Assembly (NCBI RefSeq): GCF_023498005.1
Contig: NZ_CP097289.1
Span: 2,418,001 to 2,482,000 of the forward strand
Direction: 5' to 3'
Length of the DNA stretch: 64,000 nucleotides
DNA from: Streptomyces durmitorensis
GTDB lineage: Bacteria > Actinomycetota > Actinomycetes > Streptomycetales > Streptomycetaceae
A program made the position numbers and the translations under genes. Shown piece after piece: positions 1 through 19,374 of this stretch; position 1 is the first letter of the stretch; each line of letters opens with the position of its first letter. The notes beneath the pieces were generated by a model. It saw only the letters and a program-made list of their open reading frames with translations, did no database searches and was not told where the DNA came from.

Positions 1-10
1 CGAACTCCAC

Positions 11-3000: not shown

Positions 3001-4642
3001 CGTCACCGCCTGGGAGTCGGCGCTCGCCTACTGGGCGACACTGCTGAGCGACGACGAGTACTGGGACGGCTGGCGCGCCGAGCGCGCCGCCTGCTACGCA
3101 CGGGACCTGCCGGGCGAGGACATGGCCCAGCTGCGCCTCGAACTGAGCCAGCACCTCTTCGGGCAGCTGTCCGTCTGCGAACAGCGCCACACCGAGCAGG
3201 ATCGCCCCGAACAGGCCGCCGCTTACCAGGAGTTGGCCGCCCTCCTGGAGGCCGAGCTGGGCGCGGCCCGCGTCCTGAAGGACATGGGCGGCCTGCGTGA
3301 CGTGCCGGGCGCGGGCGCCGCACCGCTCGCCTGCGGCCCCCGCTATTTGCGCCTGCTCCACCTGGAGGCACCGCTCGGCGCGCTCGCCGCCGCTCTGGAC
3401 GCGGCGGCCGAGCAGGGCAAGGACCCCGGCGTCTACGCGGTACGCGAACTGCGCTGGGCCTTCTCGGAGTTGGCGCAGAGCTTCGTCCTCTCCGAAGTCC
3501 ACAAGTTCGGGCCCGCCCTGCGCGCACTGCCCGCCTTCGCCACCCTGACCACGCTGCCCGCCGACTGCGCGGGCCCGACGGCGGGACCCACGCCGTCCGC
3601 GCACATCGAGGCCTGCGCGCACTGCGAGGACTTCCTGCGCCGCAATCCCGCGTACGTCCAACTGCCCGATCGACGGACCAAGTTGCTCCAGGACGGCGTC
3701 GAGCTCGCCGTGCGCGTGCGGCTCTCCCTCGCCCGCACCGCCCTCACCGACGGCGCGGGCGGCCTCGCGCGCGCTCTGGAGGAGTGGTCCGAGCTCGTCA
3801 AGGTGTCCCGGCGGGCCGGGATGCAGGCCCGCAGCAAGAAGGCGGTGGTCACCGCCGTGCTCGGCCGCGTCGAGGCTCTGGTCGACCGGGGCGGCGCCCA
3901 GCGCGGCGACTGCCTGGACGAGGCCGTCACGCTCGTCGAGGCGGTGCCGCCGGTCCTGCATCCGCTCGACCGCGACCTGGTGGACCAACTGAACACCAAA
4001 CTCTCGGCGTTGCTGTCGATGCGCGGCGTGTGGCGCGGCTACACCCGCACCAAGTACGGCATGCGCTCCGACGCCTATGGGGCGGAGGCCGACCTGCGCC
4101 GCGCCCTGAAGCTCAACCCGGCGTCCAGCCACGCCCGCGACAACCTGGCGCGCGCCCTGGTCTTCACCCTCGACGCGCACACGCACACGATCCCGGGCCG
4201 CCTGAAGATCCTCCACGAGGCGCTCGGCCTCCTCGACGTGGGCCTCGGGCAGGCCCTGACGCACGGCTACCGCGAGACGCTCGGCGAGGCCCTCGACGAG
4301 CTGGAGCGGCTGCTCGCCCGGGATCTCGGGGTGGACGGACTGCGCGACCTGATGCGCAGCGACAGCGAGGAGACGCCGCCCGACGAGAGCGAACTGGCCG
4401 CCTGGGCACGTCTGTTGACGGACCGCGCCGAGGACTCCCTCGGCGCGGGCGACATCCAGCGCACCCTGCACCATCTGATCCGCGCCACCCGCGCCGACCC
4501 GACGAACAGCCGCATCCGGCGCGCACTGCTCGACGCCGTCCAGCGCAGGCTCGACGCGCTGACGGACGGCGACGGGCCGCAGGACACGGACGGGCAGCAG
4601 GACACGGACGGGCAGCAGGACACACAGGAGGAGGCTCCGTGA
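11..4642 (+). CDS. Giant TPR-like repeat protein, 5' end possibly outside the window
   Basis: Product of about 1543 aa if it starts at the GTG at 11. The frame is open to the left edge, so the true start may lie upstream. It is built of many degenerate helical repeats of the form Y-A-x-G-R-x-A-(5-7)-W-x-x-A, about 40-50 residues apart, which resemble TPR repeats and suggest a scaffold. Residues about 444-632 are a Thr/Asp/Ala/Gln-rich low-complexity insert. Residues about 847-906 (from DRTYPYFALRDAGVDP) resemble the small protein encoded next at 4639. The C-terminus ends in a short DGQQDT repeat. The stop overlaps the next start, so the downstream genes are probably translationally coupled. 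Exact function is unknown. I infer a client- or partner-binding scaffold for the chaperone-like genes that follow. Confidence 0.85.
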   Translation: MAEAFAAAERARHRTDWATAAAAYADVVARRSGHEGARAGAEYVGGRVAQDAGEWGTAEAGYVACAGLADSVARVAYVRGRGAAEAGDWGAAYEGFAEAEALRAEALRAEGGDLRPTVENPGENAGESPGEDPQEAPEESPGPDLPSWHAYASGRVAEGERAWAEAVEGFAGADGFLDAGVRLLYARGRGAADREAWPEALVDLEAAAAQGWDTEPWLSGLRERTYRGALDAAAVGNWADALANLDLLPPGYRDVGPRKCYVQGQVAASGGDWPKAADAFGECVAAGPADAGCGFDDADALRTYAEGRRCQDESRWQDALACFTRLSSDLLDVPDRLLYARGRAADARAEWAGVIDGFGRLPDTYAHGEVRDRRRYARARVAAELRGDWGAVLSLLTDVPDTGRAGAVGALRRKAEGRLAEAAGDWAGACEIYAGALAADAEGGGDCAGDVRAEGTHTEDSPTAYGDAESAHATYADAATADAQGSGGHTADAQYTDTTGTEAEDSSTADAATTATDAQDSHAQHTDTTDAEAEDGGGTQRDGNRASGTPGVRAQDTEAKDDSTPDGDTRAADARDSGTHDRGTPDRLTHPPDMHAPDTQDANAQDSTPHSPTTRDSNPDPCPTGPHDAPHQELHHLHRYALARTHELAGAWEDVCRAYEALPDSWADVVVRRRYARARIAEGGAVSAVEWRAVVAAFSAVEPGAFEDAAARRKYALVRLAEAEGDWGRVQEEAASLGDHRDAAALGSYARGRLADAHQEWRQAVDAFRACLRHRDAEAHLAYAQGRLLETDGRWSDAVAAYERAGGGLDRADARCRRLRRLLELLPWADGLTSAPLVADPFASSDRTYPYFALRDAGVDPGATMDVVNDASYTLLERGGMTWSERVAWDRLRLPGRRLQLDALLYRWHSPAALRDAMAGLSPDEGAGAGLIGDLCERFPQDAPLLLLLARDREAAAAEWERRLAAAPGDMAVVHGLAAARFWQAQELEQSGAWEHAVTAWESALAYWATLLSDDEYWDGWRAERAACYARDLPGEDMAQLRLELSQHLFGQLSVCEQRHTEQDRPEQAAAYQELAALLEAELGAARVLKDMGGLRDVPGAGAAPLACGPRYLRLLHLEAPLGALAAALDAAAEQGKDPGVYAVRELRWAFSELAQSFVLSEVHKFGPALRALPAFATLTTLPADCAGPTAGPTPSAHIEACAHCEDFLRRNPAYVQLPDRRTKLLQDGVELAVRVRLSLARTALTDGAGGLARALEEWSELVKVSRRAGMQARSKKAVVTAVLGRVEALVDRGGAQRGDCLDEAVTLVEAVPPVLHPLDRDLVDQLNTKLSALLSMRGVWRGYTRTKYGMRSDAYGAEADLRRALKLNPASSHARDNLARALVFTLDAHTHTIPGRLKILHEALGLLDVGLGQALTHGYRETLGEALDELERLLARDLGVDGLRDLMRSDSEETPPDESELAAWARLLTDRAEDSLGAGDIQRTLHHLIRATRADPTNSRIRRALLDAVQRRLDALTDGDGPQDTDGQQDTDGQQDTQEEAP
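1340..1905 (+). repeat. Low-complexity Asp/Thr-rich coding segment
   Basis: Within the TPR-like gene, imperfect short units built around GACACG, GACGC and CAGGAC encode a run rich in Thr, Asp, Ala and Gln between two blocks of helical repeats. The units are too diverged for a clean period. It is probably a disordered linker. Confidence 0.7.
4564..4626 (+). repeat. 18-bp tandem repeat at the 3' end of the TPR-like gene
   Basis: Near-identical units with the core GACACGGACGGGCAGCAG recur in direct order and encode DTDGQQ repeats just before the stop codon. The last unit runs into the ribosome-binding site (GGAGG) of the next gene. Confidence 0.7.
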
Positions 4643-4998
4643 TCAAGGACCCGTCGACAGGCTGGGACGGCGGCCCGTTCCCCTACGACGCGCTCGCCGA
4701 GGTGGGCGTCACCCCCAGGACGTCGCACGCCGACCTCCAGGACGCCTCCTTCGAGCTGCTCGCCCGGCGCCTGATGACCCCGGTCACCCAGCAGGCATGG
4801 GACGAACTGCGCGTCGTACGCCGCCGGATGGTGGTGGAACTCCTTCTGCACGACGTGGACTTGGAGTCGGCCGTCCCCGCAGCAGAGGCCGCGCTCGACC
4901 GCGCACTCGCCGCCGCCGAGCACCCCGAACCGACCGCCATCCCGCTCCCGGAGGAAACCGCCCGCCTCCTCGACGACCTCATCACCTTCGACACGTGA
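4639..4998 (+). CDS. Small J-domain-like protein without HPD motif
   Basis: 119 aa from a GTG that overlaps the preceding TGA (GTGA). An AGGAGG lies just upstream and decides the start. The segment PYDALAEVGVTPRTS, then LQDASFELLARRLMT and QAWDELR, has the outline of helices I-III of a J domain (compare PYxxLGVxPxA and AWDxLR). No His-Pro-Asp triad is visible. A similar segment lies inside the upstream TPR protein. The position directly before GrpE- and DnaK-like genes supports a co-chaperone role, which is inference. Without HPD it could not stimulate Hsp70 in the classical way. Confidence 0.7.
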   Translation: MIKDPSTGWDGGPFPYDALAEVGVTPRTSHADLQDASFELLARRLMTPVTQQAWDELRVVRRRMVVELLLHDVDLESAVPAAEAALDRALAAAEHPEPTAIPLPEETARLLDDLITFDT

Positions 4999-5029
4999 CG
5001 CCCCCGCGACACCGAGGAGCCCGCCTTCG

Positions 5030-5491
5030 ATGAGCACGCAGGACCCGCACCCGCACCCCGCGACGACGGCCACCGCCGCACGCCTCGCCTACGAGAACTC
5101 CCTGGCCCTGACCGCGCGGGACGCCGCCCACCGGGCGCTGACCGAACAGCTGCTCCTCGTGCTCGCCGACACCCTGGACTCCTTCGACCGGCTGCTCGCC
5201 GAAGGGGCGGACGTCGACCCGAATTCGTACCGCAGAAGCCTGGAACTGATCGCCCGGCAGCTGGAGACGGCCCTGACGGGACAGGGGGTCGAGCCCGTGG
5301 GCCGGGTCGGCGAGCGCGCCGATCCCGCGACCCATCACGTCACCGAGGTCCGCACCGCCCCCGGAGCGGCCGACGACGAGGTCCTGGAGATTGTGCAGCG
5401 CGGATATCGATACCGGGGGCACGTCCTGCGCGCCGCCCGGGTAGTTGTCGCCGTGACCGGCGGCGCCGAGCAGGGAACGGAGCGTTCATGA
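5030..5491 (+). CDS. GrpE-like nucleotide exchange factor (short paralogue)
   Basis: 153 aa from an ATG at 5030. The N-terminal two thirds are predicted helical. The C-terminal third carries the GrpE head signature: GERADPATHHVTEVR, then VLEIVQRGYRYRGHVLRAARV, which matches the family pattern of a DP-x-x-H-x-A/V stretch followed by a beta-rich GYxxxGxVLRxAxV. It is shorter than canonical GrpE (about 180-220 aa), mainly at the acidic N-terminus. The next gene, a DnaK-type Hsp70, starts 4 bases before this stop (ATGA). GrpE proteins release ADP from Hsp70, so this is most simply the dedicated exchange factor for the neighbouring chaperone rather than the genome's main GrpE. Confidence 0.8.
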   Translation: MSTQDPHPHPATTATAARLAYENSLALTARDAAHRALTEQLLLVLADTLDSFDRLLAEGADVDPNSYRRSLELIARQLETALTGQGVEPVGRVGERADPATHHVTEVRTAPGAADDEVLEIVQRGYRYRGHVLRAARVVVAVTGGAEQGTERS

Positions 5492-7632
5492 AGGCCATCG
5501 GCATCGATCTCGGCACCACGAACAGCGCGGTGGCGGCCCACGACCCGCACCGCGCGGACATCGCGGTGCTCACCAACAGCAAGGGCGAGCGGCTCACCCC
5601 GTCCGTGGTGGGCCTGGCCCGGCAGGACCGCCCGCACCAGCCGCTGGTCGGCGAGGACGCGCTGAACTGGGCGATCAGGCAGCCCAAGGACACCGTGGTG
5701 TCCGTGAAGCGCCTGATGGGCCGCGACTTCGCGGACACCTCGGTGGCCGAGGCGCGCGGCAGGCTGAGCTACGAGATCGTCGCGGGCCCCGACGACGACC
5801 CGCGCGCGCACGTGGTGCTCGGCGAGAGGACGCTGACGCCCGCCGACGTCTCGCGGATGATCCTGGAGAAACTCGTCCAGGACGCGACGCGGACCCTGGG
5901 CGAGCAGGTGACGCACGCCGTGATCACCGTGCCCGCGTACTTCCGCGACGCCCAGCGGGCCGCGACCCGTGAGGCGGCCGAGCGTGCGGGCCTGGTGGTG
6001 AAGAAGATCGTGGACGAGCCGACGGCCGCCGCGGTCGCCTTCGGCCTGCACAAGCCGGGCGGCGAGCGCAGCCGCGTCCTGGTCTACGACCTGGGCGGCG
6101 GCACCTTCGACATCTCGGTCCTGAACGCGGTCAAGGACCGCGATGGCAACAGCCAGTTCCAGGTGCTGCGTTCGGCCGGCGACATCTGGCTCGGCGGCGA
6201 CGACTTCGATCTCGCGATCGTCGAGCGGATCATCCAGTGGATGAAGGACGAGCACCAGGTCGACCCGTCGGGCGACAAGGCGTTCCTCTTCCAGGCGAAG
6301 AAGGCGGCCGAGCGCGCCAAGCGGGAGCTGAACGACCTCGACGAGACGTACATCGTGATCCCGGCGGCCCACCGCAGCCACAAGGGTGTCCTCGTCGACG
6401 TCGAGATGACGCTCTCCCAGGGCGAGTTCAACGCGATGATCGCACCCCTTGTGTCCCGGACGATGGGCCTGGTGACGGAGACCCTCGGCCGCTACGAACT
6501 GGCGCCCACGGATATCTCCGACGTCCTCCTGGTGGGCGGCGGCACGCTCACGCGGCCCGTCTACGAGGCGGTCGAGGCGTACTTCGGCAAGGACAAGGTC
6601 CGCAGGAACATCAACCCCATGGAGTGCGTCGCGTTCGGGGCGGGTGTGCTCGCCGAGACCCTGGACGGCGTGGAGTGCCCCGACCCGCAGTGCGCGAAGG
6701 TCAACGACGACGCGGCGCAGACCTGTGAGGACTGCGCGGAGAGCCTGGTCAACGCCCGCCCCGTCGGCTCGACCGGTCTCTACGAGTCGACGCCCATGGC
6801 GATGGGGATCGCCGCGGTCAAGGGCGATCAGCGTGATGTGTTCGTCGAGATCATTCCGGCGGGTTCGCCGTATCCGCTGCCCGAACCGCGCCGGCGCACC
6901 TTCCACGCGACCGACAGCCGCCGCATCCGCGTCCCGGTCTACGAGGGCGACAGCCAGGTGGCGAGCGAGAACCACGAGCAGGGCGTCGTCGAGTTCGACC
7001 TCCCGCAGGAGATCGAGGTCAACCGGCACGTGGACGTGTCGTTCAACTACTCCGCCGACCGCATCATCACCGTACGCATCAGTGTGCGCGGCACGGACAT
7101 GACGCTTGAGGCGACCCCGAACCGCGAACGGCCGAGGACCCCGCCGCCGGAGACGGGCGCGGAGGTCGACAGCCATGTACTGCGCGAGGAGCTGGGGTAC
7201 GCCGAGCGGGAGGCCGATCACTTCCTGAAGCGGTACGGCACGTACATCGAGCCGGTGCAGGCGATGAAGGTGCGCCGCGACATCGAGCAGGCCCAGCGGG
7301 CGGCGGCGATGGGCGACAGCGGCGAGTACAAGCGGCTCACCGAGCTGCTGCTCGACGACGTGTTCCACCAGTGCGGTCTGGCCAGCCAGTTCCGGCAGGC
7401 GGAGCTGGCGTCGGAGGGCGCGCCGCCGGACACGGTGCGGCAGATCAACGAGGCGGTCGACTACGTCAAGCAGGCCCACCGGCAGGGCAACCGGGTGCAG
7501 ACGGCGCAGCAGGCCCGCAACCTCCGCAGTCTGGTGGCGGTGGCCCAGTCGGAGCGCCGGGTGCAGTCGCTGCCCGACCGGCCCGACTACGGCGGCATCC
7601 TCCAGGTCGGGGAAGACACGGTCGACGGATGA
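5488..7632 (+). CDS. DnaK-type Hsp70 with inserted four-cysteine motif
   Basis: 714 aa, longer than usual DnaK (about 610-640). The ATPase domain (about 1-390) has phosphate-1 IGIDLGTTNSAVA at residue 4, phosphate-2 VYDLGGGTFDISVL near 199, and the adenosine motif LLVGGGT near 347. Immediately after it, C397, C402, C413 and C416 (CPDPQC and CEDC) form a zinc-ribbon-like insert not found in ordinary DnaK. A beta substrate-binding domain follows (about 440-550), then a helical lid to about residue 690. It overlaps the GrpE-like gene upstream and the second Hsp70-like gene downstream by 4 bases each. It is likely an active ATP-dependent chaperone dedicated to this operon. The insert may serve redox or metal sensing, or partner docking. 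Confidence 0.92.
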   Translation: MKAIGIDLGTTNSAVAAHDPHRADIAVLTNSKGERLTPSVVGLARQDRPHQPLVGEDALNWAIRQPKDTVVSVKRLMGRDFADTSVAEARGRLSYEIVAGPDDDPRAHVVLGERTLTPADVSRMILEKLVQDATRTLGEQVTHAVITVPAYFRDAQRAATREAAERAGLVVKKIVDEPTAAAVAFGLHKPGGERSRVLVYDLGGGTFDISVLNAVKDRDGNSQFQVLRSAGDIWLGGDDFDLAIVERIIQWMKDEHQVDPSGDKAFLFQAKKAAERAKRELNDLDETYIVIPAAHRSHKGVLVDVEMTLSQGEFNAMIAPLVSRTMGLVTETLGRYELAPTDISDVLLVGGGTLTRPVYEAVEAYFGKDKVRRNINPMECVAFGAGVLAETLDGVECPDPQCAKVNDDAAQTCEDCAESLVNARPVGSTGLYESTPMAMGIAAVKGDQRDVFVEIIPAGSPYPLPEPRRRTFHATDSRRIRVPVYEGDSQVASENHEQGVVEFDLPQEIEVNRHVDVSFNYSADRIITVRISVRGTDMTLEATPNRERPRTPPPETGAEVDSHVLREELGYAEREADHFLKRYGTYIEPVQAMKVRRDIEQAQRAAAMGDSGEYKRLTELLLDDVFHQCGLASQFRQAELASEGAPPDTVRQINEAVDYVKQAHRQGNRVQTAQQARNLRSLVAVAQSERRVQSLPDRPDYGGILQVGEDTVDG
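6676..6738 (+). other. Cys4 zinc-ribbon-like insert in the Hsp70
   Basis: Codes for CPDPQC, eleven residues, then CEDC (residues 397-416 of the 5488 gene), exactly at the junction of nucleotide-binding and substrate-binding domains where the interdomain linker of Hsp70 lies. Confidence 0.75.
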
Positions 7633-9524
7633 CCGCGGCGGTGGGGCGCACCCCTGTGTGCCTCGGGCTCGACTTCGGCAGCACGGGCGTGCGCGCGCTG
7701 TTCGCGCTGCCCGGAGAGGCAGCGCGACGGCTCGACGACGCGGCCGGCGACTGGCCGTGGCCGCTGTGCGAGCCCGCCCCTGCGGGCGTACTGCCCGTCA
7801 CCTTCCCCAGCGTGAAGAGCCGGCTCGGCAGCGGGCGGCCCGTCCTGGTGCGCGGGGCGTCGCTCCCGCCGGAGCATCTGGTGGTCCCGATGCTGCGGGT
7901 GCTGCGGGAGCGTGTCGAGGCCCGGACGTCGGGGACGGTCGCGCAGACCGTGATCAGCGTGCCCGCGGCCTACCGGTCGGCGCAGCGTTCGGCGCTGCGG
8001 GACGCGGCGCGGGAGGCGGGGCTCGCGCCCGCGCGGCTGATCAGCGACGCGATGGCCGCGGTCGTCGGGCACGCGTCGGAGCGGGAGAGCGGCACCTTCC
8101 TCGTGTACGGGATGGGGTACGAGGGGTTCGAGATCGGCCTGGTCCGCGGTGTGCGGGGCCACTACCGCGCGCTCGGCCACGAGGGGGCGGTCACCTCGGG
8201 CGGGCGCGCCTTCGACGGGGAGGTGCTCTCGTCGGCGGTACGGCTGCTGCGCAGGCACCGCGGCCCCGGATCGGTGTCGGGGGTCGCCCCGGAGGTGTGG
8301 CTCGCGCTGCGGGCGCGGGCGCAGGAGGCGCGGGAGGCGCTGAGCACGCCGGGGAGCGCGGGGGCCGCCGAGCTGTCCCTGGACGTGGGCACGGGGCCGC
8401 CGCTGGAAGTACGGATCACCCGGCCCCATCTGGACGCCTTCCTCGCCCTGCATGTGCGGCGCACGGTGGACCGGGCACGGTCGCTCCTGGACCAGTCGGG
8501 GATGACACCGGCGGACGTGGATACGCTGCTTCTGACCGGCGGCAACACCCTGATGGAGCAGGTGAGTTCGGGGGTGGCGGAGCTCGGCGGCCACCGGGTG
8601 CAGGCACCGCCCGAGCTGCTCGCCCTGGGGGCGCTGAAGCACGCGGTGCGGCTCGCGGGCGGTGCGGCGGCCGGGTCCGCCGCCCTGGAGGAGGGCCCAC
8701 TTCAGCCCGCCGACCCCGCCGAGGACACGCTCTCGGACCCGCCTGCCCTGACGGCCACGCTGGTCGGGGGCGCGGGCGGGAGCGGGGGCGCGGAGCCGGT
8801 GCGGGGCGCGCCGCCCAGCAGGGACGTGGAGCGGGCGCGGGTACTCGCGGGGCAGGGGCGCACGGATGAGGCGGTGGCGCTGCTGCGGGGGATCGTCGCG
8901 GAGGCGGGGGCGCTGCTCGACACGCTCACGTCGAAGGCGGCGCGGGCCGCGCAGGCATCGCAAGCACCGCAGGCACCGCAGGCATCGCAGGCACCGCAGG
9001 CATCGCTGGACGCACCGCCGAACGCGCTGCCGGTTCCGCCACCGGTGGCCGCCGAGTCCGACACCCCGCCTCCCGCCGACCGGATCGCGATGCGGCAACT
9101 CGCCCGAGCCGAGAGCCTGTTGGAACTCGGGCGGTACGACGATGCCGTGCAGGCCTCGCACGCGGCGTGGCTCGGGGCGGCCACCAAGGCCGCGGGCGCC
9201 GACGTGCTCGACGCGATGATCGACGTGCACTGCGCGGCCGCGATGGCCGACTCCGCGCCCGGTCACTTCCCCGACGCCGAGCGGTGGCTGCGGTGCGCGT
9301 ACAGCCATGACCCGACCAGCGAACGCGTGCGCGGGCTCCTCGCCGAGCGCACCTACCGGCACGCGGTCGAAGTGCAGCGCCTCGGGGGACGCGATGAGGC
9401 GATTGAGGCCCTGGGGAAGTGCCTCACATGGGATCCTGAACACGCCGATGCCGAGGCCTTGTTGCGGCGGTTGAACCGCGACGGAAGGAGCCGGCGAGGC
9501 CCGAGAGCAGGGGGAAGCGTTTGA
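7629..9524 (+). CDS. Hsp70/actin-fold protein with lost phosphate-2 loop and helical C-terminus
   Basis: 631 aa from the ATG at 7629, overlapping the DnaK stop (ATGA). The N-terminal half is Hsp70-like: LGLDFGSTGVRALF matches phosphate-1, TVISVPAAYRSAQRSALRDA matches the connect-1 region, and LLLTGGNTLMEQV matches the adenosine motif. Where DnaK has DLGGGT this protein has GMGYEG, so the Asp and Gly-Gly-Thr of phosphate-2 are missing and normal ATP hydrolysis is unlikely. There is no substrate-binding domain. An Ala/Pro/Gln/Ser repeat stretch (8947-9010) links to a C-terminal helical, TPR-like region (about 490-620). I infer a regulatory or scaffold pseudo-chaperone paired with the upstream Hsp70. 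Confidence 0.8.
   Translation: MTAAVGRTPVCLGLDFGSTGVRALFALPGEAARRLDDAAGDWPWPLCEPAPAGVLPVTFPSVKSRLGSGRPVLVRGASLPPEHLVVPMLRVLRERVEARTSGTVAQTVISVPAAYRSAQRSALRDAAREAGLAPARLISDAMAAVVGHASERESGTFLVYGMGYEGFEIGLVRGVRGHYRALGHEGAVTSGGRAFDGEVLSSAVRLLRRHRGPGSVSGVAPEVWLALRARAQEAREALSTPGSAGAAELSLDVGTGPPLEVRITRPHLDAFLALHVRRTVDRARSLLDQSGMTPADVDTLLLTGGNTLMEQVSSGVAELGGHRVQAPPELLALGALKHAVRLAGGAAAGSAALEEGPLQPADPAEDTLSDPPALTATLVGGAGGSGGAEPVRGAPPSRDVERARVLAGQGRTDEAVALLRGIVAEAGALLDTLTSKAARAAQASQAPQAPQASQAPQASLDAPPNALPVPPPVAAESDTPPPADRIAMRQLARAESLLELGRYDDAVQASHAAWLGAATKAAGADVLDAMIDVHCAAAMADSAPGHFPDAERWLRCAYSHDPTSERVRGLLAERTYRHAVEVQRLGGRDEAIEALGKCLTWDPEHADAEALLRRLNRDGRSRRGPRAGGSV
8947..9010 (+). repeat. Short GCA/TCG-CAG-type tandem repeat in coding sequence
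   Basis: Alternating 6-9 base units (core GCACCGCAGGC) encode repeated QAPQAPQAS in the degenerate Hsp70-like gene. It is likely a flexible linker and prone to length variation. Confidence 0.7.
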
Positions 9525-11017: not shown

Positions 11018-11493
11018 GCCGACCGCGGCGCCGGGGGCGGATCAGCGTGGTGGTCCTCGCGGGGTGGCTCTTCGCCGATCTGCTCCTCGTCCTCGCCCTG
11101 GTGTCGATGGCCGACCGCCCCGACCCCCTGGCCGACCGCCCCAAGGCGTCCGAGAGGGAGTCGAAGCCGCCGCCGTCCAAGCCCCCCACGGGCCCGCGCT
11201 CGGTCGAGCTGAAACCGGAGGAGTTCCGGGTCAAAGGCGCGGACAAGGGTGATCTCACCCGGCAGATCCACAAGAACACAGGGAAGTGGGCGGGCCGTGA
11301 GGCGGCGCTGGTGCTGACGTTCGGCGGTTCCCGCAACGGCGAGGCGTACGCGCACCGCGTCAACTCGCTGCTCGGCAAGGGCCGTCCGGACATGTTCACC
11401 AAGAAGACGGCGACGGACGACTTCCACAACCTGGGCGACCCCGCGTCGACGGCGAAGGTCCGGGTGTACTTCTACACGACGCCGGGCGGCTGA
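11014..11493 (+). CDS. Single-TM protein with intramembrane Asp (MotB/ZorB-like layout)
   Basis: 159 aa from a GTG overlapping the previous stop. A basic N-terminus (RPRRRGR) precedes one helix, residues 11-32 (SVVVLAGWLFADLLLVLALV), with Asp22 in its middle. A Pro/Lys-rich linker and a C-terminal alpha/beta domain (about 75-159) follow, with ALVLTFGGSRNGEAYAHRV. MotB, ExbD and ZorB proteins share an N-in topology, one helix with an essential Asp, and a periplasmic or OmpA-like end. Similarity here is only in outline. It is translationally coupled to the coiled-coil membrane protein and is probably its partner. Confidence 0.65.
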   Translation: MSRPRRRGRISVVVLAGWLFADLLLVLALVSMADRPDPLADRPKASERESKPPPSKPPTGPRSVELKPEEFRVKGADKGDLTRQIHKNTGKWAGREAALVLTFGGSRNGEAYAHRVNSLLGKGRPDMFTKKTATDDFHNLGDPASTAKVRVYFYTTPGG

Positions 11494-11496
11494 ACC

Positions 11497-13647
11497 ATGA
11501 CGAACTGGCACCCTGGCGAGCGCCCGCCGGACGACGCGGCGGGCCTGCCCCTGCCCGTGCTGCCCGCCACCCCGGCGATGAGCGGCTATCAGGCGCTGCG
11601 CGACGTCCTGCAGAAGCTGAGCTTCCGTCACGCGGCCGACGCCCTCCGTGCCCCAGCGCCCCAGCAGTCGACGCAGGCCCTGTTCGGGACCCTGCCGAAG
11701 GCGGCGGCCGACGACGGGTTCCGCGTCCTCGACGGCCTGTGGCTCCCCGCCCGCGGCGGCCTGTGGCAGCGGGTCGACCGGGCGTACGTCCAGGACTGCG
11801 GCGCCCGGTGGATCGCCTCCAGCCATCCGCGCGCCATGGACGCGGCCGCCGTCGTGAACGTCCTGGAATCCGTCCTGCTCGAAGACCCGATGGGCCTGCG
11901 CCGCATCGTGCTGTGGGAACTGTGCTGCCGCCTGAGCGACGGCGCCGCTGAGCGGGGGGCCAAGGACGGGCGAGGGGCCACGACCGGGAAAGGCGCCAAG
12001 GACGGGCGAGGGGCCAAGGCCGCCTACCCGCCGCCATCCGCCGCGCACGCCGTGGCCCTCGGCGTCCACCGCAGCGAGGCCGACCTGCTCGTGGCCGCCA
12101 TCACCGCCGTCCGTTTCCCCGCGGCCGGTGCCGCACGGCACGCCGCCGAGACCCTCCACGACATCTGGCCGGGCACCCGGCTGCGCGAGGCCGAGCGGCT
12201 CGCGCAGCTGATCCCTCCGGCGCCCACGGATCACGTACTGGCCGCGGCGCTCGGCACGCTCCACGCCCGGTCCGATGCGGTCCGTCAACTGACGCTCACC
12301 GCAGAGCAGTTGGCGGACCGGGGCGACCTCCGTGCCGCGGCGGCCGCCTGGCTCGGCGCGCTGCGGCAGGCCCGCGACGACGTGGACGCGCAGGCGGGCC
12401 TCCTGCGCGTGGCCGCGCTCCTGGCCGACGACCCCCTGGCCGCCGAGGAGTCGGAGGTGACGGCCGCCGTCGAGGACCGGACCGTACGGCTGTCCTGGCA
12501 CGCCCCGGGCCACGGCCGGGACGCGGTGACGTACCGCGTGCTGCGGTACCTCGAAGACGCTCCCGAGCTCGCCGTCGAGGTGACGGAGGGCAACGCCGCC
12601 CGCACGGCGGTCGACCTCGACGCCCCCACCGGACGCCCCCTGCGCTACGCCGTGTTCCCGGTGCGCCGAGGCCGCATCGCCGGGGTGCCGCGCGTCACCC
12701 GGCAGGTACTGCTCACCCCTGACGTCTCGGAGCTGCGCGTCGAAGCGGTGCCGGACGGCGTGCGGCTGCGGTGGCGGCCCGACCCCTCGGCCCTGGAAGT
12801 CCATGTCGTGCGGAAGGCCGACGGCGACGACGGCCCCGGGCAGCGGGTGTTCTGCGAGCACGACCAGCTCCTGGACGCGCCGCTCGCCGTCGGCCCGTAC
12901 GTCTACGAGGTCCGCTGCTGCTACTCGGGGCCCGCCGGCCGCCTGGTCAAGTCGCCGGGGCGCACCATCACCGCCCGCGTCGAGCGCTGGCCCTCACCGG
13001 TGGAGGAGCTCAGTGTGCGGCGCCTCGACGACGGCCGCGTCCGCATCGCGTGGCGGCCGCCGTCGCGCGGTGAGGGCCACCTGGTGCCGTGGTTCGCGCA
13101 TCCCGTGCCGCCGGGCGCGGACGTGTCCGAGCACCTCGGCAGGCTGGCACCGCCCGCCGGCGCCCCGCCGACCTCCGTCGACGTGCTGCCGCCGCCCCGT
13201 GAGCGGCTGCGGATGACGGCGGTGAGCGTGCTCGGCGACCGCGCCGTCTCGGGGCCGAACGTAGTCGTCGAACACCAGGGGGAGGTACGGGACCTGGAGG
13301 TGCGGCGGGTGGCCGCCGACCGCGCGGAGCTTCGGTTCGCGTGGCCCGAGCCCGCCGTGCTCACGCTGATCTCCTGGGAGGACGGCGCGCGGGGCAGTGA
13401 GCGGCGCGTGGCGCGCAGCCAGCATGTCGCGGGGCAGGCCGTGGCGCTCCAGGTCTCCCCGGCGGAGTGCCGGTTCACCGTGACCGCGCTGCCACGCCCT
13501 GATGCCGTGGCCATCGGGGCGCCGTCGGCGCGGGCCGTGCTGCCCGCCGAGCCGCCACCGGCGCCGACACTCCCGCCGGTGGCCGCCCCCTGGTGGCGGA
13601 CGTGGTGGCAGCGGTGGCGTTCGAAGCGAACGCCCGCCCCCTTCTAG
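11497..13647 (+). CDS. Fibronectin type III repeat protein
   Basis: 716 aa, ATG at 11497, 3 bp after the previous stop. The N-terminal 310 residues form an unrecognised mostly helical region. From about 315 onward there are at least three beta-sandwich repeats of FnIII type (for example DRTVRLSWHAPGHGRDAVTYRVLR, and DGRVRIAWRPPSRGE near 505), ending in a Pro/Trp-rich tail. No signal peptide or TM helix is evident, so it is probably cytoplasmic. It is the last gene of the chaperone operon and stops 16 bp from the stop of the convergent kinase gene. FnIII repeats usually mediate protein contacts, so an adaptor role is likely. Confidence 0.8.
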   Translation: MTNWHPGERPPDDAAGLPLPVLPATPAMSGYQALRDVLQKLSFRHAADALRAPAPQQSTQALFGTLPKAAADDGFRVLDGLWLPARGGLWQRVDRAYVQDCGARWIASSHPRAMDAAAVVNVLESVLLEDPMGLRRIVLWELCCRLSDGAAERGAKDGRGATTGKGAKDGRGAKAAYPPPSAAHAVALGVHRSEADLLVAAITAVRFPAAGAARHAAETLHDIWPGTRLREAERLAQLIPPAPTDHVLAAALGTLHARSDAVRQLTLTAEQLADRGDLRAAAAAWLGALRQARDDVDAQAGLLRVAALLADDPLAAEESEVTAAVEDRTVRLSWHAPGHGRDAVTYRVLRYLEDAPELAVEVTEGNAARTAVDLDAPTGRPLRYAVFPVRRGRIAGVPRVTRQVLLTPDVSELRVEAVPDGVRLRWRPDPSALEVHVVRKADGDDGPGQRVFCEHDQLLDAPLAVGPYVYEVRCCYSGPAGRLVKSPGRTITARVERWPSPVEELSVRRLDDGRVRIAWRPPSRGEGHLVPWFAHPVPPGADVSEHLGRLAPPAGAPPTSVDVLPPPRERLRMTAVSVLGDRAVSGPNVVVEHQGEVRDLEVRRVAADRAELRFAWPEPAVLTLISWEDGARGSERRVARSQHVAGQAVALQVSPAECRFTVTALPRPDAVAIGAPSARAVLPAEPPPAPTLPPVAAPWWRTWWQRWRSKRTPAPF

Positions 13648-13663
13648 CCCAGCACCTGCGCTT

Positions 13664-15022
13664 CTAGTCCCGCACCTCCGCCTCCGCCCCACCCCCGAAC
13701 TCCAGGAGCAGACCCGCCCGCAGCGCGATCGTCCGGCCCGGCTCCACGTCCCGCACCGTCCCGTCGTCCTTCCGCGCGGTCCACACGTCCTTGGTGTGGT
13801 TGGTGAGTCCGAACCTGCCCCGGTTCTGGGGGTGTTCGGTCACCTCGCCCACGACGGCCCGGAAGTCGTGCCGGTCGGGGTACTCGACCAGGTGATGGGC
13901 GTAGACCCGCGCGCTCGGGGCGAGCCTGATGCCGCGCCGGGTGCGCGACGTCCCGGTGCCGGTGACCAGTTCGAGCCGCGGCGGAAGCACCAGCGTACGG
14001 CCGCACTTCCAGCAGTCGGGGGCCGCGCCGTCCGGCTGCGTGAGGTTCTGCTTGCCGCACGAGCCGCACTGGGTGATGGCGTCGAGGACCTGGCTCAGGG
14101 CGTCGCACCACTGCGACTCGCGCACCCGCTTGACCGGCGTCCGTACCCCCTCCGTGAAGGTACGGACGAACAGGTCGCGCAGGATCTGCGGCAGCGCGCC
14201 CCAGGTGGCCACCACGGTCGGCTGCTCGCCGGGCACGGGGCGGTTGCGGGCGTCGGAAGGGTCGTAGATGAAGACCGGGTCGGTGCCGTACAGACGCCGC
14301 TTGGCCGCCTCGTCCATGCAGCGGATCTGCAGGGCCTGCGCGCCGTTGAACGGGTGGTCGTTCATGAGGAGCAGGAAGAGCAGCACCGCGAGCGAGTGCA
14401 GGTCGGTCTGCGTGCCGGGCTGGGCCCCCTTGTCGCGGCGGACCAGTTCTGGCGCCATGAAGTCCATGGTCCCGGCGACGGCGGCGGACTCGCCCTCCAC
14501 CACCGCGTTGTCGTTGTCGCACACCAGGACGTCCCCGGTGCGCGGGTCGAAGAAGATGTTGCCCCAGTTGATGTCGCGGTAGGCGATGCCCCTGGAGTGC
14601 AGCGACCGGTACGCCTCGACGGTGTGCAGCGCCACGGTGACCAGCGTGCGCATCGTCGCGGCGGACACCGAGGGGTCGCGGCGGAACAGCGCGGGCAGGT
14701 CCTGGAAGCGTCCGGGGCGTACGTCCATCAGATAGCCGAAGCCCGGCGCACCGCTCTTGGGGCCCTCCGGATCGAGGACTATGGCGGTGGGCCACAGGAA
14801 GCGGTCGTCGCTCCAGCCCCGCGCGATGAGCCCTTCGAGGATCTGGCGCTGGCGGGCGTCGGCCAGCTGCGGGTAGTACCACTTCAGCGCGCGATCGCCC
14901 TGCGGCGTCGTCACGCGGTAGACCTCGCCCTGGCCGCCGGAGCCGAAGAGCTCGGCGACCGTGACCTTCTCCCCCGACTCGGCCACCAGGGTCTTTCCGG
15001 CGGCGAGCATGCCGTTCACCAT
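13664..15022 (-). CDS. Ser/Thr kinase with zinc ribbon, third gene of a TerY-P triad
   Basis: 452 aa. The kinase domain (about 15-300) has the Gly-loop GSGGQGEVY, Lys47 (ALKWYY), catalytic loop YRDINWGN (Asp150, Asn154) and DND (169-171) in place of DFG. HRD and DFG are therefore altered, but the catalytic acids remain. A zinc ribbon CGSC-(x17)-CWKC (about 317-340) follows, then a C-terminal beta-rich domain (about 345-450) that could be FHA-like. The ATG overlaps the PP2C stop. In the Ter-linked phosphorylation triad, a vWA protein, a PP2C phosphatase and exactly such a kinase are encoded together. Here the order is vWA, PP2C, kinase. Confidence 0.88.
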   Translation of the reverse strand: MVNGMLAAGKTLVAESGEKVTVAELFGSGGQGEVYRVTTPQGDRALKWYYPQLADARQRQILEGLIARGWSDDRFLWPTAIVLDPEGPKSGAPGFGYLMDVRPGRFQDLPALFRRDPSVSAATMRTLVTVALHTVEAYRSLHSRGIAYRDINWGNIFFDPRTGDVLVCDNDNAVVEGESAAVAGTMDFMAPELVRRDKGAQPGTQTDLHSLAVLLFLLLMNDHPFNGAQALQIRCMDEAAKRRLYGTDPVFIYDPSDARNRPVPGEQPTVVATWGALPQILRDLFVRTFTEGVRTPVKRVRESQWCDALSQVLDAITQCGSCGKQNLTQPDGAAPDCWKCGRTLVLPPRLELVTGTGTSRTRRGIRLAPSARVYAHHLVEYPDRHDFRAVVGEVTEHPQNRGRFGLTNHTKDVWTARKDDGTVRDVEPGRTIALRAGLLLEFGGGAEAEVRD

Positions 15023-15948
15023 GCGGTTCCTTTCTCGGCTTCCTGTTCGGCTGAGCCATCGGCTGAGCCATCGACTGCGCTTTTGGGCTCAGCGGGTGCC
15101 GTGGCCGCGAGAGCGCCCACGAACGTCGTGTCGTCACCGGAGTACTTGGCGGCGCGCTCCAGCCAGTCCGCGAGCTGTGCCTGCACCGCGGGCACGCCCT
15201 GCCCCGCGGCGCGCTCGGTGACGCCGGTGGCGAAGTCCAGGAACCCCTGGTGGTCGGCGAAGCTCTTGGAGAGCCCGTCGGTGGAGATGAGCACGGCCGG
15301 CGGCGGGCCCGTGGTGAAGGGCTCCCAGTGCGACCGCATCTTGCGCCATGGCTCCGGCTCGCACAGCGAGTCCGTCTCGTCCCCCATGTCGGGCCCCGTC
15401 GAGAGCGGTGTGCGCGGGGTGCCGTCCGCGTCGACGAGGACGATGTCCCCGTCGCCCAACTGCCAGCAGAAGAGCATGTGTTCGGTGAGCACGGCACCGA
15501 TGAGGGTGCTGCCGTACACGGCGAGGTCGGGCGCACCGCCGACCGCGCCCGGCAGCCGGAGTCCACCGTGCGCAGGGGAGTTCCAGTCGTGCAGCAGCGC
15601 GCGCTCGCGCCAGCGGTGCGCCACCTGCTGCGGCAGCCTGCGGGCCTCGGCGCGCAGGCCGGTCCAGCCCTTCGCGTCGTCGCCGACGCGCACCGCTTCC
15701 CGCGCGAAGCCCTCCGCGCACGCGGTGAACTCCTCGACGGCCCACCAGGATCCGAGGTCGCTGCGGAAGTGCGCGGCGGAACCGTGCCCGTCGGCCACCG
15801 TGAGCACCGCGGCGCGCCCCTGGGCCACGGAGAGGGTGCCGCAGCTGTCCTGGCTGTACTTCTTGCCGACTCCCTTGACGGTGGCGCCGAGGATGGCAAA
15901 GCCGCCGGTCGTGGCCCGTGTCCGTGCCGGTGTCGATGGCCCGCTCAC
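15016..15948 (-). CDS. PP2C-family Ser/Thr phosphatase of the TerY-P triad
   Basis: 310 aa from a GTG at 15948 that overlaps the vWA stop (GTGA). An upstream extension of the frame is out-of-frame vWA coding and is not used. Metal-binding PP2C motifs are present: SQDS near 32-35, VLTVADGHGS (Asp53, Gly54), WQLGDGDIVL, LISTDGLSKS and SGDDTTFV. The enzyme should remove phosphate from Ser/Thr, presumably opposing the adjacent kinase. The C-terminal 25 residues are acidic and Ala/Ser-rich. Confidence 0.9.
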   Translation of the reverse strand: MSGPSTPARTRATTGGFAILGATVKGVGKKYSQDSCGTLSVAQGRAAVLTVADGHGSAAHFRSDLGSWWAVEEFTACAEGFAREAVRVGDDAKGWTGLRAEARRLPQQVAHRWRERALLHDWNSPAHGGLRLPGAVGGAPDLAVYGSTLIGAVLTEHMLFCWQLGDGDIVLVDADGTPRTPLSTGPDMGDETDSLCEPEPWRKMRSHWEPFTTGPPPAVLISTDGLSKSFADHQGFLDFATGVTERAAGQGVPAVQAQLADWLERAAKYSGDDTTFVGALAATAPAEPKSAVDGSADGSAEQEAEKGTAW

Positions 15949-16685
15949 CAGATGTCGTCTTCGTCGTCCTTGGTCAGCGGCGCCGGTCCGAGCGGGGACG
16001 CGGGCCTGGCGTCCTCGACCTTCGGCGTCGACGCGTCCTTCACGACGGCCGTCGACATCCAGCGGATGGCCGCGGCGAGCTGGCGGGGGTTCTTGGCCTG
16101 AAGGGGCTCGAGCTCCGGGTTGGCGAGGAACTCCTTGAGCATGCTCTTGTCCGCGTCGTCCCCGATGGCCACGGCGACCCGCACGGCACGCTTGCCCCAC
16201 GGCGTCGCGTCGATCTCCCGCAGGCCCGCGCGCCAGTCGTCGGTGGGCTGACCGTCGGAGGCGAGCGCGAGCACCGGGGGCAGCGCGCGCTGCGGCATCG
16301 GCGGGGTCTGGAGCGCACCCGCGGCGAGCTTGAACGCCGCGCCCATGTCGGTGCCGCCGTACGTGTGCACGTCCTCCCAGGCGAAGCGGTCCACCGGGGT
16401 GGGCTCACTCACATGCCAACTGGCGCCGCTGGCAAAGGAGATGGCGCGTACGAGCAGGGAGGCGGCCGGGTTGGACTCGGCGGCCTGCTGCATCTCGGGG
16501 ATGGCCTCGCGGATGGCGAAGTTCAGTTCGCCGATCTTGCCGTTCACGCCCATGGAGCCCGAACAGTCGAGCATCCAGATGAAGTGGACGGGGCGGTTGG
16601 CCATGCTGCCGCCGGGGAAATTGTCGGCGGCGGCATGGGCCTTGACGGTCACACTGGTGTCGCTGGTGTCGCTGGTGTTCCTCAC
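15945..16685 (-). CDS. TerY-like von Willebrand factor A domain protein
   Basis: 246 aa. The vWA domain carries an intact MIDAS: MLDCSGSMG (Asp40, Ser42, Ser44), a Thr in GGTDMG near 110, and ALASDGQPTD as the third loop. The N-terminus before MANRPVHFIW is a Ser/Thr/Asp-rich tail, so the ATG for MANRP is a possible alternative start. The C-terminal 40 residues are disordered and end DDEDDIW. Single-domain vWA proteins of this type (TerY) bind divalent metal and are proposed to assemble partner proteins. This is the first gene of the vWA-PP2C-kinase triad. No terD-family gene is present in the window. Confidence 0.9.
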   Translation of the reverse strand: MRNTSDTSDTSVTVKAHAAADNFPGGSMANRPVHFIWMLDCSGSMGVNGKIGELNFAIREAIPEMQQAAESNPAASLLVRAISFASGASWHVSEPTPVDRFAWEDVHTYGGTDMGAAFKLAAGALQTPPMPQRALPPVLALASDGQPTDDWRAGLREIDATPWGKRAVRVAVAIGDDADKSMLKEFLANPELEPLQAKNPRQLAAAIRWMSTAVVKDASTPKVEDARPASPLGPAPLTKDDEDDIW

Positions 16686-16823: not shown

Positions 16824-19172
16824 TCAGCGGCCGCGGTCAGGACCGTGGCCAGGGATGTGGCCAGGGCCGTGCCCAGGACCGGAGCCGGGTCTTGGTGGCC
16901 CTTGCGCCCCCGCCTGCCTGCTGCGCCAGGCGTTCCATTCCTGGACCCGCTGCGACCCCCGCCCGTGCGGCTGCCGGGCGATCTCCGTGGCGACCTGGCC
17001 GAGCGTCCAGGAGTCCAGGTACGGCACCACGGGAGCGAGGACGCGGGTGAGCAGCTCGTCGGCGACCCGCTGCCACTCCTTCGTGATCGGTTGCCCGTGG
17101 CGGGGGCGCCAGATGTTGTAGAACGCGGCGACATCGGCCGGTCGGCCCGGCAGTTCGCGGAACCGCCGCTCCCATGCGCCTTCGTCGAGGAACATCTCGC
17201 GATAGGGCCGCAGTACGTCTTCGCCCGTGCTCATCAGGAAGTCCAGGGCGGGACGGTGGCACAACTCGACGGGAGCCGCCAGGGCGAACCCCCGGCCGAC
17301 CCAGGCACCGGTCCCTTCCCGCAGGACGGCACCGAGCCGCGCGGCCTGCTCGGACTGGACGCGCAGGCGCTCGACGGCGGTGCGCAGGGAGAGGTGCCCG
17401 TCGGCGAACTCGTACGACGTCATGAGGAGTTCGGCCGTGGCGCGCTGGAGCGCGGTCAGCTGACCCGTCGCCCGCAGGTCCCTCGCGAACTCGACCAGGT
17501 CGCGGTCGACCCGCTCCGGCGACCTGAGCAGGACGGCGAGCGGGACGGCGTATCCCGCCTCGACGAACAGCCGCGTCGGGCAGGTGCGGGCGAGCTCCGC
17601 CAGGTCGGCGGGGTCGGGCTGCTTGCCGCCCCACACGATCCGCCACAGCCACTTCAGCGTCACGGGGTCGGTCACCTTCCGGCCCGGCACCAGCTCCACG
17701 AGCGCGGCGAAGAGCCGGGCGCCCCGCAGGCAGTGCGGCTGCCGCTGGAAGCGGGCACCGGCCTCGGCGAGATGGAGCACGAGCGGCGCCTCGCCGGCCT
17801 CGACGCGCCGCCGGAGCCACTCCCCCTGGGGCGAGTTGGCGAAGTCGCGGAGCTTGCCCAGCTTGCCCTCGGTGAGTCCCCCGCCGAGCAGACTCAGGAC
17901 CTGCCGGTTCAGCCCCGTGTGGCCGAGCGCCTCCAGGACCTCGACGGCCTCCGCGCACGCCCGCCGCCCGGGGTTGAGCAGCGCGTTGGCGAGCCGTTCC
18001 GTCGCCTTCTCCAGGCCGCGCCCGGCGCCCGCACCCAGGTCGAGCACCAGCCGCAGCCGTTCGGTCCAGGCGCCGATGGGTTCATGGAGGCTGCGCCGCA
18101 GGGTGTCGTCCGCGCGGCTGCCGAAGTCCCCGCACAGCCGCTGCCAGGCGTCGGCGTCCAGCGGGAGCCGCCGGCACGCGGCGAGGTCGGGCAGCGTGCC
18201 CTGCTGCTCGGCCACCGCCACGTAGTGCCGGACCAGGGCGAGGGCCAGCGGTTCGGCCGCCGCGGGGTCCTCGGCCCCGAGCGCGCGGCAGAGTCCGTAC
18301 AGCTCGTCGACGAGAGGGCTGCCCGCATCCTCCTGCGCCACGGACGCCGCATGGGCGCGCACGACGTCCCGGCGGGTGTCGCCCGAAAGGGCCGCCAACT
18401 GCCGCATGTCGAGGGGCGGGTGGGTCAAGGCGAACGGGTCGTCGCCCTCGCACGGCGGCTCGGGCGGTGTCCCCTCGATCCACTGCCGGGCGGTCACCTC
18501 GGCCCATGGGTCGGGGATCGGGGTGCTTCCCTGGCCGCCGAGCCCGTCGTGCACGCGGTAGAAGTGGTCGAGCGTGGGCCCGTCGAACCGGTCGAAGTCC
18601 GCGTCGGGCCCGATGCCGAGGATCTGCTGCGGCGCTCTGCGCGGCTGCGCGGTCCAGGTGCTGAACGTCAGCGATGCGGCGTACGCGTCGGGCAGCGAGG
18701 CGCAGGCGAGGGCGATCCAGCAGGCCACGGTCTCGGGGGCGGACTCGGCGACGACGATCTGCCGCCCGGCCCGCTCGTCGAACAGACGGCGCACGTCGGC
18801 GAGGAAGGGTGCGACGCGGGGAGCGTGCGCGCGGGCGAAGACGACCAGCCCCTCGGGGGCGACGTCACCCAGGGTCAGGGACAGGGGCAGTTCATCGGTG
18901 CCGTCCGCGTACGCCACGTCGACGCGGTGCTCGGCGGGCGTGCTTCCGGGTGGCCCGGCCACGGTGTGGCACAGGAGCCCCGCGCCGTCCGGAAGCCTGC
19001 TGCGGCTGAGACCTTGACGCTGTCCGACGGCCAGCGCGAACGCCGCCAACTCCGGGGATTCGAGGGTGTGTTCCTTCTCCTGCTCCTGCGGTCCCGCCGG
19101 TGCGGGGATCAGACGGACGGCTCCGGTGTCCGGCTCCTCGTCGAGCCGGTAGCTGAGTCGGCGGATGGCCAT
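16824..19172 (-). CDS. GTPase-associated protein 1 (GAP1)-like large protein
   Basis: 782 aa from the ATG at 19172 (MAIRRLSYRLDEE). The N-terminal 200 residues are alpha/beta with SLPDAYAASLTFSTW followed by QPRRAPQQILGIGPD. This resembles the middle region of actinobacterial GAP1 proteins (LPxxxAxxLTFTTYxxxPRRxxxxIVG). The remaining 500 residues are helical and rich in Leu/Ala/Arg, with a basic Gly/Pro/His-rich tail. GAP1 proteins were described in predicted NTP-dependent conflict systems. No Ras-like GTPase is nearby, so the family call is tentative. It is transcribed toward the TerY-P triad and likely belongs to the same system. Confidence 0.6.
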   Translation of the reverse strand: MAIRRLSYRLDEEPDTGAVRLIPAPAGPQEQEKEHTLESPELAAFALAVGQRQGLSRSRLPDGAGLLCHTVAGPPGSTPAEHRVDVAYADGTDELPLSLTLGDVAPEGLVVFARAHAPRVAPFLADVRRLFDERAGRQIVVAESAPETVACWIALACASLPDAYAASLTFSTWTAQPRRAPQQILGIGPDADFDRFDGPTLDHFYRVHDGLGGQGSTPIPDPWAEVTARQWIEGTPPEPPCEGDDPFALTHPPLDMRQLAALSGDTRRDVVRAHAASVAQEDAGSPLVDELYGLCRALGAEDPAAAEPLALALVRHYVAVAEQQGTLPDLAACRRLPLDADAWQRLCGDFGSRADDTLRRSLHEPIGAWTERLRLVLDLGAGAGRGLEKATERLANALLNPGRRACAEAVEVLEALGHTGLNRQVLSLLGGGLTEGKLGKLRDFANSPQGEWLRRRVEAGEAPLVLHLAEAGARFQRQPHCLRGARLFAALVELVPGRKVTDPVTLKWLWRIVWGGKQPDPADLAELARTCPTRLFVEAGYAVPLAVLLRSPERVDRDLVEFARDLRATGQLTALQRATAELLMTSYEFADGHLSLRTAVERLRVQSEQAARLGAVLREGTGAWVGRGFALAAPVELCHRPALDFLMSTGEDVLRPYREMFLDEGAWERRFRELPGRPADVAAFYNIWRPRHGQPITKEWQRVADELLTRVLAPVVPYLDSWTLGQVATEIARQPHGRGSQRVQEWNAWRSRQAGAQGPPRPGSGPGHGPGHIPGHGPDRGR

Positions 19173-19298: not shown

Positions 19299-19374
19299 GG
19301 AGTTGAGGCCACGGTGGTGCGCGGGCCGCCACCGAACGGCCCGTCTCCTGACGCTGACCCTGATCGGAGTCGAC

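Follow-up and report, generated by a model that had tools for sequence, protein, structure and literature searches.

A Streptomyces variant of GAP1 double-GTPase systems with a membrane pair in place of the GTPases and an added Hsp70 arm

Introduction

The closest described relatives of the locus reported here are the GAP1-N2 double-GTPase systems, for which Kaur et al. 2020 (PMC7159879; here and below, extracts of the paper) described most of its parts computationally, as non-overlapping themes. Their theme 2 comprises HSP70, GrpE, a second HSP70 without substrate-binding domain, and FNIII with DnaJ or TPRs; theme 3 comprises a kinase with a zinc ribbon and a beta-rich domain, PP2C and vWA. 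We analysed a window, the whole stretch of 64,000 nucleotides from Streptomyces durmitorensis (assembly GCF_023498005.1, contig NZ_CP097289.1, positions 2,418,001 to 2,482,000; genome 9.86 Mb), that holds a locus encoding GrpE, two Hsp70 proteins, two membrane proteins (M1 and M2) and an FNIII protein on one strand and GAP1, vWA, PP2C and a kinase on the other. What is new, as far as the extracts of that survey go, is that themes 2 and 3, modules kept apart there, are joined in one locus. New too, among the loci read, are the mutually exclusive presence of GTPases and M1-M2 beside triad, GAP1 and FNIII, and the lack of a recognisable N2 in GAP1 of the M1-M2 type. A preliminary description of the window knew of no characterised system with all these parts; this holds in that the open literature searched contained no experimentally characterised one, and fails in that most parts had been described computationally (PMC7159879).

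The locus shares GAP1, FNIII, Hsp70, GrpE, a truncated second Hsp70 and TPRs with theme 2, but has no double-GTPase and no recognisable GAP1-N2 or DnaJ domain, and it adds the vWA-PP2C-kinase triad, M1-M2 and a putative CHAT protease. With theme 3 it shares the kinase architecture, PP2C, vWA, GAP1 and FNIII; loci of that theme, of which we found 42, run in one direction with double-GTPases, whereas the arms of the window locus face each other tail to tail without a GTPase. Of the features that mark GAP1-N2-type systems, the GAP1 middle and C-terminal domains and an FNIII component are present in the window, and an N2 domain and a double-GTPase gene were not found there. Because the defining GTPase and a recognisable GAP1-N2 are absent, and themes 2 and 3 are joined, its domain content places the locus beside the GAP1-N2-type double-GTPase systems as a variant, not as a member.

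The vWA, PP2C and kinase genes lie side by side, the kinase ends in a zinc ribbon, and together the three constitute a TerY-P triad, as in CoCoNuT (PMC11090510, extracts), with GAP1 and FNIII in the window where CoCoNuT has an McrB-type GTPase and nuclease parts. M1-M2 may resemble ZorA-ZorB of Zorya (PMC11890865, extracts) as an adjacent pair of a coiled-tail protein and a one-helix protein with a conserved aspartate and a predicted outer domain of OmpA-like topology; however, no sequence similarity supports M1 as ZorA, and PADLOC scans of 15 proteins, covering the locus and the hydrolase next to it, found no ZorC, ZorD or ZorE. The two-gene EACC1-caspase systems (Kaur et al. 2020, PMC7159879) likewise have a small 5' gene and, downstream, a caspase-fold (CHAT) protein with TPRs, but in our locus the small gene has no Pfam match, a TPR gene intervenes and the CHAT gene belongs to the chaperone operon.

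The membrane pair takes the place of the GTPases

Relatives of the locus were collected in three samples. The first was a GAP1-C search in which 87 of 394 genomes in the family gave a match (three candidates scored per genome); we read 17 genomes from among the lower scores, together with G081 and G093, which came from a search with the second Hsp70. The second was drawn from kinase relatives in GTDB genomes, at least 570 in number, of which we took the best 80, and the third was an M2 search over 391 genomes of the order, which matched 34 places in 33 genomes; 24 of these were read, the 10 unread ones being weak matches. After merging six duplicate records, 116 loci were classed; the kinases of L037 and L050 are identical, so that a single species may have been counted twice. 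Because the samples were not random, and each anchor favours its own gene, the counts below are not frequencies.

In loci of the window type (class A), a run of GAP1, vWA, PP2C and kinase meets a run of FNIII, M2 and M1 tail to tail; 16 such loci are complete and two more (L046, L047) are cut by contig ends. This orientation was found in all 16 loci with triad, GAP1, FNIII and M1-M2, a recurrence beyond chance. The arms lie 6-188 bp apart in 14 of these loci and 1964 bp apart in L043; the distance is undefined in G407 because the split FNIII frame there stays open beyond the kinase stop codon. Class B (42 loci) reads FNIII, GTPase, GAP1, GTPase, vWA, PP2C, kinase in one direction, and class D (15 loci) has M1, M2 and a distant vWA, PP2C and kinase (14 of 15 by motif) without GAP1 or FNIII. 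Those loci read that combine GAP1 with an Hsp70-like protein and lack the triad (L024, L026-L028, L039, L040) carry two GTPases each. Another 24 loci hold the triad only, mostly in Bacillota and Chloroflexota, the other parts being absent by our own models; L056 and L064 among them are short Streptomyces contigs. Seen from M2, 22 of the 24 places read adjoin vWA and PP2C (7 class A, 15 class D).

The two GTPases of one class B locus match DO-GTPase2 at 39.9 and 53.2 bits (cut-off 27). Our own GTPase models matched 55 loci, with none among the 23 class A records (18 distinct loci) or the 15 class D loci. Sorting the 60 loci that hold triad, GAP1 and FNIII by their further parts gave 42 with GTPases only, 16 with M1-M2 only, two, cut by contig ends, with neither, and none with both. 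In class A loci the GTPase is thus replaced by M1-M2, more than merely missing. DO-GTPase2 (PF19993) was not found in the window genome (150 of 152 candidates scored; PF19975, DO-GTPase1, was not run genome-wide).

We also examined the GAP1 proteins. GAP1-N2 exceeded its cut-off in none of 15 class A sequences (best 20.7 bits, cut-off 24; two reach E 1e-3; L122, L046 and L047 lay outside the scan) and matched in 13 of 13 of the GTPase type, six of which, scanned singly, scored 112-148 bits. A diverged N2 remnant may be retained in class A GAP1. Kaur et al. 2020 (PMC7159879) inferred from matching GAP1-N and GTPase subtypes that the GTPase dimer binds its GAP1, and the joint loss of GTPase and N2, as read from the sequences, agrees with this.

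M1 has two membrane helices in its AlphaFold2 model and a predicted coiled coil of ~180-240 residues, mostly at a predicted local distance difference test score (pLDDT) of 52-66. In M2, model and alignment show one membrane helix followed by a beta-alpha-beta-alpha-beta-beta domain. The membrane location claimed in the preliminary description is likely. The motif GWLFAD in the M2 helix, invariant in 33 of 33 M2 loci read, supplies an invariant transmembrane aspartate, Asp22, and we infer that M1-M2 may be a stator of the ZorAB/ExbBD kind. Fold searches with the M1 and M2 models gave no decisive neighbour. ExbB appeared only among insignificant matches of M1 in sequence and fold searches, the ZorA1 match of M1 in PADLOC falls in the coiled coil, and matches of M1 to spike proteins and other coiled coils were taken as composition matches; the profile comparison of M1 with stator families used the 10 M1 rows that passed a motif filter. 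Public proteins contain 557 M2 clusters, and the 120 listed have no Pfam domain; those that carry a name are labelled hypothetical, secreted or with something unrelated.

The signalling arm looks active, judged by its residues. Kinase Lys47, Asp150, Asn155 and Asp169, which we take to have their usual functional roles, are invariant in 12 sequences, as are the zinc-ribbon cysteines 319, 322, 337 and 340. PP2C retains DGHG and later acidic motifs and vWA retains DCSGS.

In a tree of 42 kinases that includes all class A loci, class A (support 92/91) and the GTPase type (99/87) are neighbouring groups; L030 was left out as a long branch and the contig-cut L046 and L047 were unlabelled for Hsp70. 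An earlier tree without L122, and also without L068, L070, L083, L097 and L103, gave 99/97 for class A.

M1-M2 and the triad also occur in other surroundings. The class D loci, L123-L137, are from Streptomyces or near kin, with M1-M2 at the head of a second operon type. A divergent conserved gene (158-287 aa as read) adjoins M1 in at least nine of the 15 and has no Pfam match in the two proteins scanned; it was considered as TerD-like and rejected, since there was no TerD among the PDB matches and an hhalign comparison with the TerD proteins of the genome itself gave no support. In L139 and L140, M1-M2 have as neighbours a divergent gene of double-GTPase type (in L140 it scores 26.7 bits, just under the cut-off of 27) and others, and these are the only loci read with both. 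The group L095-L120 consists of triad relatives from Lachnospiraceae, Chloroflexota and other taxa in which our own models detect neither GAP1 nor FNIII, and three of its eight listed loci have an extra gene separating kinase from vWA.

The Hsp70 arm is an addition to the core

An Hsp70 arm lies behind M1 in eight of the 16 class A loci (the window, G093, G407, G304, G189, L042, L089 and G292), and G081, whose contig is 4 kb long, is a ninth locus with Hsp70. The expectation that the two arms are neighbours was borne out well beyond one genome, in that all eight Hsp70-arm loci with enough contig carry the triad. The count says less than it seems to, as the window, G093 and G081 alone were reached via the second Hsp70, the other six arm-bearing loci via kinase, GAP1 or M2. 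The further claim, that the phospho-switch exists to control Hsp70, was not supported: close relatives of the triad lack the chaperone arm in eight of the 16 class A loci, in all 42 GTPase loci with FNIII and GAP1, and in the 24 triad-only loci. Since close triad relatives occur without it, the Hsp70 arm is an addition, and the constant part is smaller than the preliminary description held, namely GAP1, vWA, PP2C and kinase facing FNIII, M2 and M1. Independent arms with no conserved neighbourhood had been named as the outcome that would count against a joint system; half of this was found, in that the triad occurs without the chaperone arm, and the reverse was not seen.

The arm begins upstream of the window with genes for a 162-aa protein, a 773-aa TPR protein and a 2102-aa CHAT-TPR protein, so that two more conserved genes sit 5' of the CHAT-TPR gene. 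This ten-gene order recurs in G093, G292, G304, G189 and, with a split CHAT-TPR frame, G407. The "TPR-like scaffold" of the preliminary description does contain a TPR part but was incomplete: the final 1546 residues fall inside the window, and at the N-terminus of the whole protein is a CHAT protease domain (PF12770, 75 bits). Because this domain keeps a His239/Cys286 pair, in 6 of 6 loci read with the window included (the sequences of L042 and L089 stop before the gene start and are outside the count), the protein is probably a protease. Its CHAT part has a weak match to BovA in PADLOC (20.4 bits). The 162-aa protein has one hydrophobic stretch, seen by eye, and gave no Pfam match that would identify it as EACC1, the presence of an EACC1 model in Pfam not having been checked. 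In G407 (L142, L035) the CHAT-TPR gene lies in two overlapping frames, and since the FNIII and second-Hsp70 frames are also split, this assembly may contain errors.

The 119-aa protein had been labelled J-like, a label we withdraw. It has no Pfam or NCBIfam family, no J protein was among its PDB matches, and the hhalign probability against the genome's own DnaJ is 0.1. HPD is the hallmark motif of J domains, and it is not visible in the 119-aa protein. Homology of this protein to residues 1396-1488 of the CHAT-TPR protein (own hidden Markov model (HMM), E 2.2e-15) instead suggests that protein and twin domain form an adaptor pair; such pairing has been described for other domains of GAP1-N2-type systems (Kaur et al. 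2020, PMC7159879).

Of the DnaK-DnaJ-GrpE set, DnaK and GrpE are present at the locus and a recognisable J domain with HPD is not. The Hsp70 has both phosphate motifs, and its four-cysteine insert directly follows the nucleotide-binding domain in 7 of 7 orthologues checked. In the second Hsp70, PF00012 covers part of the nucleotide-binding domain only and the DLGGGT motif is lost; its C-terminus gives TPR-like matches below the Pfam cut-off, and no substrate-binding domain was recognised.

On the best kinase tree the Hsp70 arm requires two changes, and no bootstrap tree requires fewer; the well-supported branches alone permit a single gain. Chaperone and core proteins diverge in step (rank correlations 0.44-0.88; 15 dependent pairs, six loci), which fits common inheritance since the arm joined. 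Three of 101 genomes in the genus have a close second Hsp70, namely that of the window, G081 and G093. Public proteins contain 85 second-Hsp70 clusters (weakest 1e-82, limit 1e-30; 7997 candidates scored), where named mostly from Streptomyces, with one from Actinomadura and one from Pseudonocardiaceae. At least 23 of the 85 pair with a listed M2 cluster through a same-sized longest contig, a proxy for one contig (119 M2 values compared).

Interpretation

The reading we favour, at somewhat less than even confidence, is that of a membrane-anchored surveillance or conflict-type system derived from GAP1-N2 double-GTPase systems, with M1-M2 in place of the GTPases. It starts from gene order, recurrence, domains, intact catalytic residues, the absence of GTPases from the loci and the loss of a recognisable N2; from these we infer a direction of signalling, the protease as output and an immune role. 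The constant core would consist of M1-M2, the FNIII protein, GAP1 and the vWA-PP2C-kinase switch. M2 would be tied to the cell wall via its outer domain and the M1 coiled coil would extend into the cytoplasm, so that the pair could serve as an envelope-facing, possibly ion-driven sensor or motor substituting for the double-GTPases. Envelope disturbance would alter the M1 tail, on which FNIII and GAP1 may assemble, with the kinase/phosphatase pair and a vWA adaptor setting the threshold. In half of the loci, Hsp70-GrpE and the presumably ATP-incompetent Hsp70-TPR partner could remodel the complex, releasing the CHAT protease to cut its targets, and the 119-aa protein and its twin domain would couple chaperone and protease.

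A more specific proposal, which we regard as doubtful, is that the double-GTPase switch was exchanged for an ion-motive, stator-like pair, that the GAP1 N-terminal domain was remodelled alongside, and that a second, distant set of kinase, phosphatase and vWA was also linked to this pair. If true, the signalling device would be of a new kind: an envelope motor, driven by protons or sodium and under phospho-control, that arms a caspase-like protease assisted by Hsp70. The GTPase switch has cleanly given way to a membrane pair, and in parallel GAP1 has lost the domain whose type tracks the GTPase type; this makes the role of GAP1-N2 and the action of the triad through a membrane motor testable questions, and M1-M2 can be compared in four contexts: with the Hsp70 arm, without it, with a distant triad and with a divergent GTPase.

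Several observations weigh against a conflict system with a stator-like pair. M1 showed no significant similarity to ExbB, MotA or ZorA. The match to ExbD spans 17 columns and came out best of 18 comparisons, and MotB gave no match; the structural matches of M2 are middling, with CagT scoring above and unrelated chorismate mutases about equal, and FtsZ is among its Foldseek matches. M1-M2 had no match in plasmid records and M2 none in phage records. GTPase absence in the other class A genomes applies to the loci, GTPases elsewhere in those genomes not having been searched. Hsp70-arm genes were not found in the other eight class A loci (neighbours inspected in seven, with only 2 kb of sequence remaining in L031; G454 by models only).

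Part of this evidence bears on a non-immune alternative, an envelope or developmental stress-response complex of filamentous actinobacteria that senses the state of the cell wall and tunes the cell's own proteins via kinase, Hsp70 and protease. The missing plasmid and phage copies speak for it, as do a kinase and phosphatase that look active by their residues and the link of GAP1-N2 systems to a multicellular habit (Kaur et al., PMC7159879). Its accessory distribution, however, with a close second Hsp70 in so few genomes of the genus, the fast divergence of GAP1 and FNIII, the exchange of modules and the intact CHAT residues fit conflict systems better, and the weak BovA match (20 bits) points the same way; we consider this alternative possible but unlikely. 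The two membrane helices modelled in M1, together with SLATT effectors reported in GAP1-N2 systems (Kaur et al., PMC7159879), would allow M1 to be a pore-forming effector kept shut by M2 until the switch opens it and the cell is killed or silenced, but M1 has no Pfam match to the SLATT family, its coiled coil is long, and the M2 helix has an invariant aspartate and may resemble ExbD, which makes a pore improbable. Least probable is a decaying ordinary GAP1-N2 system minus its GTPase, with the chaperone arm a separate, merely adjacent operon: the undetected GTPase and N2, the eight loci without the arm, and the discovery of most arm-bearing loci via core genes, so that the arm's dependence on the core lacks independent sampling, would suit decay, but the window frames are intact, catalytic residues are kept, the core order is preserved over long divergence and chaperone and core proteins diverge in step.

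Layout of the locus and neighbouring genes

The features are collected in Table 1. The plus-strand run consists of 119-aa protein, GrpE, Hsp70, second Hsp70, M1, M2 and FNIII, with overlaps of a few bases between most neighbours, and the minus-strand run of GAP1, vWA, PP2C and kinase; 16 bp separate the stop codons of the two arms. The window sequence confirmed all open reading frames, the gene order, the overlaps and the 16-bp separation given in the preliminary description. Its labels for GrpE, Hsp70, second Hsp70, kinase, PP2C and GAP1 each have Pfam matches above cut-off, whereas the single vWA and FNIII proteins fall below it (18.2 against 23.8 bits for vWA, 18.8 against 25 for fn3) and owe their labels to firm homology with the vWA and FNIII proteins of related loci in our own models.

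Table 1. Features of the locus, with positions in the window
Feature	Position	Strand	Evidence and remarks
CHAT-TPR protein, C-terminal part	1..4642	+	whole gene genome C1:2416334-2422642, 2102 aa; start and CHAT domain outside window
Domain within CHAT-TPR protein shared with 119-aa protein (suggested adaptor pair)	2522..2770	+	own HMM E 2.2e-15; blastp 41% over 58 residues
119-aa protein	4639..4998	+	kept in loci with Hsp70 arm
GrpE	5030..5491	+	PF01025, 72 bits
Hsp70	5488..7632	+	PF00012, 371 bits; CX4CX9-10CX2C-type insert
Degenerate (second) Hsp70	7629..9524	+	PF00012, 101 bits, profile 104-368 only
M1, membrane protein	9521..11017	+	AlphaFold2 model; alignment
M2, membrane protein	11014..11493	+	alignment, model, GWLFAD motif
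FNIII-repeat protein	11497..13647	+	fn3 under Pfam cut-off; own-model homology to FNIII proteins in related loci
Protein kinase, zinc ribbon, C-terminal domain	13664..15022	-	PF00069, 61 bits
PP2C phosphatase	15016..15948	-	PF13672 (PP2C_2), 107 bits
Stand-alone vWA protein, DxSxS motif (DCSGS)	15945..16685	-	sequence motif, own models
GAP1, middle and C-terminal domains, no recognisable N2	16824..19172	-	PF20014, 66 bits; PF20052, 185 bits
Alpha/beta hydrolase, divergent from GAP1	19294..20163	+	PF00561

At 40100-46989, ~21 kb from GAP1, genes for Trypco1, trypsin-VMAP (VMAP-C, PF20028), an AAA protein in the MoxR position and a 1236-aa protein without Pfam match probably form a VMAP ternary system of conflict type. 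Tubulin-type GAP1-N2 and VMAP systems are mutually exclusive in actinobacteria according to Kaur et al. 2020 (PMC7159879); the GAP1 locus of the window is not of tubulin type. Directly beside GAP1, the alpha/beta hydrolase gene recurs in 4 of 18 class A loci, which are exactly the window's four-row kinase clade, and is an accessory of the nearest relatives only.

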